Shown in pieces: positions 22,432-25,383 of a stretch of DNA of 37,100 bases. The stretch is from positions 1-37,100 of the forward strand of contig JAEEZC010000066.1 of NCBI GenBank assembly GCA_016288465.1, in the 5' to 3' direction. Below the pieces are notes generated by a model, which saw only the letters and a program-made list of their open reading frames with translations, was not told the DNA's origin and did no database searches. This DNA comes from Verrucomicrobiota bacterium (GTDB taxonomy: Bacteria > Verrucomicrobiota > Kiritimatiellia > RFP12 > UBA1067). The translations under genes and the position numbers were made by a program. Position 1 is the stretch's first letter. Each line of letters begins with the position of its first letter.

Positions 22432-22489
22432 CGAGAGCCTCCCGTCCGATCTCTTCGCTTGGATTTGCGTATCATTCCCGAGTGGAATT

Positions 22490-22498
22490 TGGTACACT
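22490..22498 (+). promoter_or_regulatory. Extended -10-like TGGTACACT upstream of MBL hydrolase
   Basis: Motif match, weaker hexamer. Confidence 0.5.
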
Positions 22499-22553
22499 AT
22501 ACGCAGACGCGCATGAGGACGCGCGTTTTGCTGGAAATCGAGGAGGTATGGCT

Positions 22554-23480
22554 GTGACTACAAGGCGAGATATGATTGTGGCGGCGGGCGCGGCTGGCGC
22601 GATGGCCGCGCTGGACTGCCGCGGTGCGCTGTGCGGAGACCGGGACGCGCTTCAGCGCGAGATAGACATGGTGACTCCGACCGTCTGGGACATGTACTAC
22701 AAGGCCGGCGTCGGCCTTGCGCCGGCCGAGGCCGCGCGCCTTCGCGCCGAGCTGCCGGCTCTCGGGCGCGTCGAGGACGCGTTCGACAAGGTCGTGGATG
22801 AGGTCATGACCACGGAGGTCTGCGACCGTCCCGCAGTCTGGTTCGTCTACAACATGGGCTTCATAGTGAAGACGCCGAAGACGCTCTTCGCCATCGATCT
22901 CCATCATCGAAGGGCGGAGGAGCTTGCGCCGATACTGGACTTCGCCCTCATCACCCACAACCACGGCGACCACTTCACCGAGCGATTCTACAACGCGATG
23001 AACGGCGCTCAGCGGAAGACCGTCATCTCCAACTTCAAGGACAACTACGGCGCGCACTTCGGCGGGCGCTGCATCGGCGGCTACACACGTGCGGAGAAGA
23101 CCTTCGAACTCGGCGACGTGACGATCCGCACGACGTACACCGACCACAACAAGTATCTGGTCGACTTCACGACTGTGTTCGAGATCGAGTCGTGCGGCTT
23201 TACGATCTACCATACGGGCGACTGCGCGAACGCCGCCAAGCTCAAGCCGAAGTGCGCAAGCCCTGACCTCTGGATGTTCCATCCGTATTGCGGTATGAAG
23301 GCGGTCGAAGGGGCGAAGGCGGTGAATCCGAAGCTCGCCGTCGTCGCGCACCTGAACGAGCTTGGACACGCGAAGAACCGGTGGCGCTGGACCTGGGCCC
23401 AGGGCGACGCCGCGAAGGCGAAGCTCGAGGAGGCCGGATTCAGGGCCGTCGTTCCGGTCTGGGGAGACAGAATCGCATAG
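22554..23480 (+). CDS. MBL-fold (UlaG-like) metal-dependent hydrolase with Tat-like signal
   Basis: LITHNHGDHF; TTRRDMIVAAGAAGAMAAL. GTG at 22554 is 6 nt downstream of GGAGGT. Confidence 0.85.
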   Translation: MTTRRDMIVAAGAAGAMAALDCRGALCGDRDALQREIDMVTPTVWDMYYKAGVGLAPAEAARLRAELPALGRVEDAFDKVVDEVMTTEVCDRPAVWFVYNMGFIVKTPKTLFAIDLHHRRAEELAPILDFALITHNHGDHFTERFYNAMNGAQRKTVISNFKDNYGAHFGGRCIGGYTRAEKTFELGDVTIRTTYTDHNKYLVDFTTVFEIESCGFTIYHTGDCANAAKLKPKCASPDLWMFHPYCGMKAVEGAKAVNPKLAVVAHLNELGHAKNRWRWTWAQGDAAKAKLEEAGFRAVVPVWGDRIA

Positions 23481-23550
23481 CGGACCCTTTGCCCTGCACG
23501 CTCCCCGCGCGACCACTTGGGTTCCCGTCGGTTTTGGTCTTAACTCCGAT

Positions 23551-23755
23551 GGTTTGGGCTCTCACTAACGTTCCGCTGCTTCGCAGTTTCAAACCATATC
23601 AAAGGGGCTTGATTTGCTGTATTTTTAGCTACCTTCGGCTGAGGAGATCTGGAGGATACTTCCTCCAGATAAAACAAAACAAGACAAGTGGTTTCCTTGC
23701 AGCATTGCGCGGCGAAGCACGCCCTGCCAGCGGAACGTTAGTGAGAGCCCAAACC
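23551..23755. mobile_element. 205-bp element bounded by perfect 28-bp inverted repeats (MITE-like or invertible segment)
   Basis: GGTTTGGGCTCTCACTAACGTTCCGCTG (23551-23578) and its exact reverse complement (23728-23755). Confidence 0.7.
23647..23670. repeat. Perfect hairpin ATCTGGAGGA-tact-TCCTCCAGAT
   Basis: Read directly. Confidence 0.9.
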
Positions 23756-23945
23756 TTTTCGGAACTACTACGTAGGTTTTGGATTTTCCAACGTTGGTTT
23801 TCGCCGCGTCTGCGGCAAACTGTCGGGGTCTGCCCCCGTCGGCTCATAACCCGCCGCCGGAAGCGTCGGGCGTGGAAACGCGGGGTAGATTTGATGGAGA
23901 TTGTCTCCATCAGGGATGGCGTGGCGGGGCAGCGCTACCGTTGCA

Positions 23946-24033
23946 TCAACCGTCAAACGAAATTTTGTCAACCGGCAAAACATCTTCCATCAACCGGCAA
24001 AATTCTTTTTGTCAACTAGCGGAAATCCGATCT
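23946..24033. repeat. Four imperfect 22-bp direct repeats (TCAACCGGCAAAA...)
   Basis: TCAAC(CG/TA) at 23946, 23968, 23990, 24012, exactly 22 bp apart. Confidence 0.8.
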
Positions 24034-24263
24034 GCGTGAGATATAACGAAGTGCATAGAAAGTGAAATGACGAATTTAGGTTCAGTTAATTGGCTCTCTG
24101 TCAAACGGGTGAAGAAATCAAAGAAGGTGATTGGATACGTTACCCGGTACCGTTCGGAGATGGCGTCTCAGCATATGTCCACCTGCCGCAATCTTCGTGT
24201 GCGAGTGGCCATGTCGGGGCGGCGATCAGCGGCGAGGCGGATTTGCGCCGTTTCATATATGTG

Positions 24264-24272
24264 TGATATAAT
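24264..24272 (+). promoter_or_regulatory. Extended -10 TGATATAAT, 7 nt from galM ATG
   Basis: Motif match. Confidence 0.8.
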
Positions 24273-24279
24273 ACGGAGC

Positions 24280-25383
24280 ATGAAAAAGCCATCATACAAG
24301 GTCGCCGCATTCGGAACCACGAAATACGGCGAAAAGGCCCGCAAGTACACTCTCAACGGCGCCGGCGGCGTCGTGATGGAAGTCTCTGACTACGGCGGCA
24401 AGATAGTGAAGCTGTTCACTCCCGACCGCCGCGGCAAGCTGCAGGACGTTGTCGTCGGCTTCGACTCGCCGGCAGGCTGGGACGAGGGCGATCCCTACTG
24501 GGGATGCATTGTCGGCCGCTACGCCAACCGAATTGCAAAGGGCGTCTTCAAGCTGAACGGCAAGAAGGTCAAGCTGCCGGCTCTCAACAACGCTCCTGGC
24601 GGCATAGGGTGCAATCTGCATGGCGGCGCGCGCGGCTGGAACGCGTATGTCTGGAAGGCGAAGCCGTTCGTGAACGGGTACGACGTCGGAATCGAGTTCC
24701 GCCACACTTCTCCCGACGGCGACGAGGGCTTTCCCGGGAAGGTCGACGTCAAGGTCGTCTACACGCTGACGAAGGACAACGTCTGGCGCGTCGACTACGA
24801 GGCTGTTCCCGACAAGGAGACGCCGATCAACATGACGCAGCACGTCTACTTCAACTTCAAGGGCGAGGCCGGCGGCACGATCGAGGACCACGTGATGAAG
24901 ATCCCCGCCAAGAAGTACCTTCCCACGGACGAAGGGCAGATACCGACCGGCGTTCTGAAGGACGTCGCGGGAACGCCGTTCGACTTCCGCAAGGGCATGC
25001 GCATCGGCGAGAAGATCAACGCGGGATTCCGCGACCTCGAGATCGGCAAGGGCTACGACCACTGCTGGGTGCTGGACAAGGGCGAGATGGCGACGGGCAG
25101 GAAGTCCCGTTCGCTCGTTCGCGCGGCTGAGGTGACGTGTCCGCTCAACGGTCGCGGCGTGGACGTCTGGACGTCCGAGCCCGCCGTTCAGATCTACACC
25201 GCGAACTGGGCGTCCTACGACAAGATCGCCAAGGGCGGCGAGCATCTGTCGTTCCGCTGCGGCGTCGCGATCGAGACGCAGCACGCGCCGGATTCGCCCA
25301 ACAAGCCGCAATGGCCCTCGACTTTCGTGAAGGCGGGCGAGACGTACCGCTCGACGACGGAATTCCGCTTCTTTGCGAAGTGA
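24280..25383 (+). CDS. galM: Aldose 1-epimerase (galactose mutarotase)
   Basis: MEVSDYGGKIVKLFTPDRRGKLQDVVVGFDS..GRYANRIAKG..NNAPGGIGCNLHGG..NMTQHVYFNFKG. Start 24280 is 7 nt from TATAAT; the ORF track start (24067) is too long. Confidence 0.93.
   Translation: MKKPSYKVAAFGTTKYGEKARKYTLNGAGGVVMEVSDYGGKIVKLFTPDRRGKLQDVVVGFDSPAGWDEGDPYWGCIVGRYANRIAKGVFKLNGKKVKLPALNNAPGGIGCNLHGGARGWNAYVWKAKPFVNGYDVGIEFRHTSPDGDEGFPGKVDVKVVYTLTKDNVWRVDYEAVPDKETPINMTQHVYFNFKGEAGGTIEDHVMKIPAKKYLPTDEGQIPTGVLKDVAGTPFDFRKGMRIGEKINAGFRDLEIGKGYDHCWVLDKGEMATGRKSRSLVRAAEVTCPLNGRGVDVWTSEPAVQIYTANWASYDKIAKGGEHLSFRCGVAIETQHAPDSPNKPQWPSTFVKAGETYRSTTEFRFFAK

Follow-up and report, generated by a model that had tools for sequence, protein, structure and literature searches.

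The window, by which we mean the whole 37,100-nucleotide stretch of DNA that was analyzed, contains a conspicuous inverted repeat between a gene for an MBL-fold protein (22482-23480, Lactamase_B_3) and a galM-like gene for aldose 1-epimerase (24280-25383). A repeat search identified two arms of 28 nt that are 100% complementary and separated by 149 nt. This pair is the top inverted repeat across the window, the next one of equal length being 71% complementary, and by our own arithmetic the chance of a perfect 28-bp inverted repeat at such a distance is of the order of 1e-10. The interior contains a 10-bp hairpin, ATCTGGAGGA/TCCTCCAGAT (23647-23656 and 23661-23670). These data agree with a first-pass annotation of the sequence, which had described a 205-bp unit with perfect 28-bp terminal inverted repeats and a second perfect hairpin, located between an MBL hydrolase gene and galM. 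The boundaries of that unit, however, were drawn too narrowly: comparison with related copies showed that members of the family start with AACTCCGA, found at 23542 in the window, and end with TCGGAGTT. The positions of all parts are listed in Table 1. A known RNA family was rejected as an explanation, since a search of 23400-24100 against Rfam gave no match with E up to 1, and no tRNA or tmRNA was found.

Table 1. Parts of the module copy found in the window.
Feature	Position	Strand	Remarks
Left outer flank, CCCGTCGGTTTTGGTCTT type	23524-23541	+	Common to other copies in the same genome
Whole module	23542-23766	.	From AACTCCGA tip to degenerate TTCGGAACT tip; limits from comparison with bounded family members
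Type I structured end	23542-23597	+	Stem ATGGTTTG (23549-23556) pairs with CAAACCAT (23590-23597)
Left 28-bp arm	23551-23578	+	
Conserved 20-nt core GGCTCTCACTAACGTTCCGC	23557-23576	+	
Interior hairpin	23647-23670	.	Kept in related copies
Type II structured end, worn tip	23688-23766	-	GTGGTTTCC (23688-23696) can pair with AAACC segment (23751-23755), read by eye
Right 28-bp arm	23728-23755	-	Exact complement of left arm

A dispersed family of modules

The 205-bp unit is not a single-copy sequence, as it matches six other places in the same genome with 83-93% identity over parts of its length. A search with the pattern AACTCCGA-N(4-14)-GGCTCTC gave 14 matches in this genome and none with the reversed control. 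The same pattern was present in 22 out of 61 genomes of the genus (rumen Kiritimatiellae), with up to 30 matches per genome. Outside the genus only 9 out of 285 further genomes of the class had one or two matches each, some of which are probably due to chance. Named records likewise place the family mostly in Kiritimatiellae MAGs from rumen and gut, and all genomes compared are draft MAGs. Several copies are located at contig ends, which is expected because repeats break assemblies. Most of the 88 bounded elements are 200-330 bp long; there are also some shorter forms and two elements of ~1.56 kb, and both solo and shortened forms of the module exist. The interior hairpin is conserved in related copies.

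The usual module consists of one short (type I) and one long (type II) end, inverted around a variable interior without genes. Each end starts with AACTCCGA, followed by a variable segment (usually 7 nt), the 20-nt core GGCTCTCRCTAMCGYTCCGC, a GCTTCGC motif and the complement of the variable segment, so that a stem can be formed. In type I ends the stem is closed ~14 nt past the core; in type II ends it is closed ~35-40 nt past it, often with an additional inner GAATG/CATTC pairing.

The sequence of the variable segment differs between copies, and its pairing was analyzed with one representative per stem class. When own partners were compared with swapped ones, the excess of Watson-Crick pairing had a z of 4.0 for 16 type I classes (1 out of 20,000 shuffles was as high) and 6.7 for 29 type II classes (0 out of 20,000 shuffles). 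With G-T pairs allowed the excess was smaller, with z of 2.7 and 3.3, respectively. Consensus folding of 11 type II ends without guidance produced the same stem with zero broken pairs, including C-G, A-U, G-C and U-A at one position, and a covariation score of 0.74 against 0.20 for shuffled and at most 0.16 for slid versions; these ends were chosen by hand as clear representatives of stem classes, so that the fold and the score lean towards structure and the shuffle test is the fairer one. Copies without a gene contribute nearly all of the stem classes in which compensatory changes are seen. Judging from this pattern of substitutions, the end stems are under selection. Cases of G-T versus A-C mismatches were too few to tell which strand folds.

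In the window copy the type I stem is paired in 8 out of 8 positions, and this end folds as predicted when treated as single-stranded DNA (z of -1.8). The right tip is degenerate, with TTCGGAACT at 23758-23766 where the family has TCGGAGTT, and the predicted stem of this worn type II end was not recovered by the same procedure.

Modules in insertion sequences and in MITEs

Ends of the module were also found in complete insertion sequences (IS). One of them, L096, is an IS4-like element with a DDE_Tnp_1 match, and L192 and L193 are 79% identical to it. All three have outer repeats CTGGAGTTTACCCATTTTT, inside which module ends lie on both sides of the transposase gene. Locus L162 holds an ISL3 element (DDE_Tnp_ISL3); its outer repeats belong to the GGYTCWTCGAAGAATTTAGTGG type, and its gene is flanked by module ends in the same manner. 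No sequence relation is recognizable between the IS4-like and ISL3 transposases (E of 0.45). Since outer repeats of both types are found without a module in elements with related transposases (L194 and L195 in the IS4-like group, L186 in ISL3), the module is an added part that does not depend on the IS family. The module-less ISL3 copy L186, from genome G059, directly adjoins a CRISPR array with the repeat GTTTTCCCCACGCCCGTGGGGATGTTCC (L186:750-1130). L162 is the only full ISL3 example with a module and is known from one record; its record title, like that of L115, names another taxon and both may be misbinned. The cross-family claim is backed independently of L162 by gene-less elements of the ISL3 type that carry the module (L085, L088 and L131). 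Sequence sharing among IS and MITEs is commonly assumed to be confined to members of one family, and the presence of module ends inside two unrelated kinds of IS is unusual.

Gene-less modules of related genomes have either IS4-like or ISL3-like outer repeats, with target-site duplications of 8-10 bp and 8 bp, respectively. Exact 8-bp duplications flank the ISL3-type copies L085 (TAAACCGC) and L088 and L131 (GAAGTAAT), the latter two being one locus in two genomes, and L073 shows a partial match. Most complete IS4-type copies have duplications, for example L071 (GATACGTA), L076 (GCGGGTTG), L104 (CAGGCGGA), L149 (ATCGTGGC) and L157 (ATAGGACCC), as has the full IS L192 (GTTCCCGCAC). Our script compared fixed 10-mers, and these duplications, except that of L192, were read from printed flanks as repeats of 8-9 bp. 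A duplication was not seen at L112, L116 and L162. The combination of outer repeats and target-site duplications indicates that the related gene-less copies were inserted by transposition and moved as MITEs. The suggestion of a MITE-like non-autonomous element, one of two offered in the first-pass annotation, is thus supported by the copy number, by the outer repeats and duplications of the relatives and by the existence of partners that carry a transposase.

Mosaic structure and arrival of the window copy

In the genome of the window, both outer flanks were seen with type I as well as with type II interiors, and a variable segment may or may not match the adjacent interior. This mosaic points to recombination at the conserved core, which would leave just such a structure. 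The opposite outer flank, usually of the TCTTCTATA-GCGCC type, has been replaced or worn at the window copy, and neither an IS-type pair of outer repeats nor a target-site duplication was found there, the first-pass annotation also having seen no clear duplication. We considered that the outer flanks in this genome might be terminal repeats of one IS, and rejected this as only ~20 bp per side are clearly conserved and no duplication was found. No transposase or IS with the outer flanks of the window copy was found in the genome. Because neither a matching IS nor a duplication was found, we infer the route of arrival of the window copy from its relatives. An empty site could not be assigned at the window locus, where relatives share only the MBL gene and no conserved neighbour. 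Among fetched loci, the sole candidate obtained by joining flanks (L031 against L101) proved to be no empty site but a partial deletion with the right end still present. With its worn right tip and no target-site duplication found, the window copy is probably immobile now. In our reading it belongs to a family of MITEs whose structured ends resemble those of REPINs or BIMEs, and has decayed.

The remainder of the MBL-galM intergenic region is filled with other dispersed repeats. A palindromic CCTACGTAG...CCAACGTTGG stretch (23767-23847) adjoins the module and also occurs beside other copies, e.g. L005 and L234; it is followed by a 158-bp stretch (23844-24001) that is 92% identical to C257. A TCAACCGGCAAAA motif occurs three to four times with 22-bp spacing at 23941-24022, and is also present at C54, C89, C170 and C257 of the same genome; this array looks like the multi-repeat end of another transposable element. 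Together with its flanks, the interior hairpin CTGGAGGA...TCCTCCAG (window 23640-23680) occurs outside modules as well (L162:540-575, L022:1500-1545), so that the interiors may have a small repeat of separate identity nested in them. In some copies one end contains an additional 30-106 bases (GCAGACGCTTGCGCGC...) (L002:1418-1500, L028:1660-1745, L070 against L140). A related genome lacks the extra bases at the corresponding locus; they represent either another nested repeat or ends that were exchanged.

Discussion

We propose, with a probability of roughly 0.65, that this feature represents a non-autonomous mobile element of rumen Kiritimatiellae, MITE-like and by now decayed, that contains a module of two structured ends. 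Such a gene-less element would be mobilized in trans, with a DDE transposase working on the outer repeats, as the duplications of its relatives suggest for the window copy too. Recombination at the conserved 20-bp core would let copies swap outer flanks and interiors, giving rise to the mosaic. The two ends may act in cis as folded single strands, either DNA or transcript, needed for propagation; we infer this role because compensatory changes keep the stems in copies that have no gene to regulate.

For the other suggestion of the first-pass annotation, an invertible regulatory segment, one could cite the perfect 28-bp inverted arms and the fact that the outer flank next to type I interiors varies from copy to copy within this genome. 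We consider it very improbable. The arms belong to a dispersed repeat, and at 8 out of 8 loci that genomes have in common the interior has kept one orientation. A scan of 23400-24350 for sigma-70-type promoters, with other promoter types outside its scope, gave no match. The differing outer flanks point to past recombination between copies and not to a switch at one locus. It is rather improbable as well that the module ends are regulatory parts of IS, for example limiting expression of the transposase from outside transcripts, and mere leftovers in MITEs. Their location to either side of the transposase gene, immediately internal to the terminal repeats (L096, L192, L193 and L162), would suit such a function, but related IS work without the module, and the stem classes with compensatory changes are nearly all gene-less, so that regulation of a transposase cannot be the selected effect there.

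The pairs of inverted, compensated hairpins, the recurrence of one module in three or more outer contexts and the solo and shortened forms could also be explained by an independent mobile unit of the REPIN/BIME kind, which would be propagated by an enzyme of its own that works on folded single strands and would have repeatedly invaded IS and MITEs of different families. We regard this as unlikely. The full IS have a module end on either side of the transposase gene, an arrangement that simple insertion would not give, and no duplication was seen directly at AACTCCGA/TCGGAGTT. Matches to the Y1 (RAYT) transposase, PF01797, are above the cut-off in 37 out of 59 genomes, and a RAYT partner was rejected because module ends were present at none of 30 fetched Y1 loci of the genus (~90 further PF01797 matches lie outside this set).

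Together with the MITE-like interpretation we put forward, as a tentative idea that we are inclined to doubt, that unrelated DDE IS of one genus (IS4-like and ISL3) obtained one and the same kind of co-varying folded end immediately internal to their own terminal repeats, so that all of these IS would be served by a common factor, trans-acting or from the host, and that the module would be a transferable part spreading between mobile elements. One co-varying module in two unrelated IS families and their gene-less derivatives offers a testable case of mobile elements trading accessory end parts. The family accounts, in addition, for a group of intergenic repeats in rumen Kiritimatiellae, the copies of which are often located at contig ends and break assemblies.

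Several known systems resemble parts of this picture. The transposase families of the partner elements and their pattern of terminal repeats and duplications are those of ISL3 and IS4; the partner elements differ in carrying an extra module inside their ends, and related copies are without it. IS that target REPs (PMC1525189), including ISPpu9 (PMC8450116), are likewise associated with palindromic repeats, but here the repeats lie inside the IS terminal repeats and not outside as a target. With REPINs and BIMEs (PMC3116915, PMC8266576) the module shares two inverted conserved units of two kinds with a variable linker, compensated hairpins, clusters and mosaics; in contrast, its ends are 56-90 nt long with a 20-nt core and are found inside DDE insertion sequences. 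The GTAG-type foot tetranucleotide is absent, the foot being AACTCCGA in all aligned ends. As the GTAG foot is lacking and no module ends were seen at the fetched Y1 loci, both being defining points for REPINs and BIMEs, we do not file the element as a REPIN or BIME. IS-derived MITEs, including mosaic TIMEs (PMC4133298), are alike in being gene-less and in their mosaic structure, and copies in related genomes also resemble them in terminal inverted repeats, duplications and an autonomous partner with the same outer repeats; the window copy, in turn, is short, has no transposase gene and is multi-copy, as is characteristic of such MITEs. They differ in that the core here is a separate pair of co-varying structured ends, common to MITEs and two unrelated IS families. 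We file the element as a variant of MITE that probably works partly like a REPIN or BIME.
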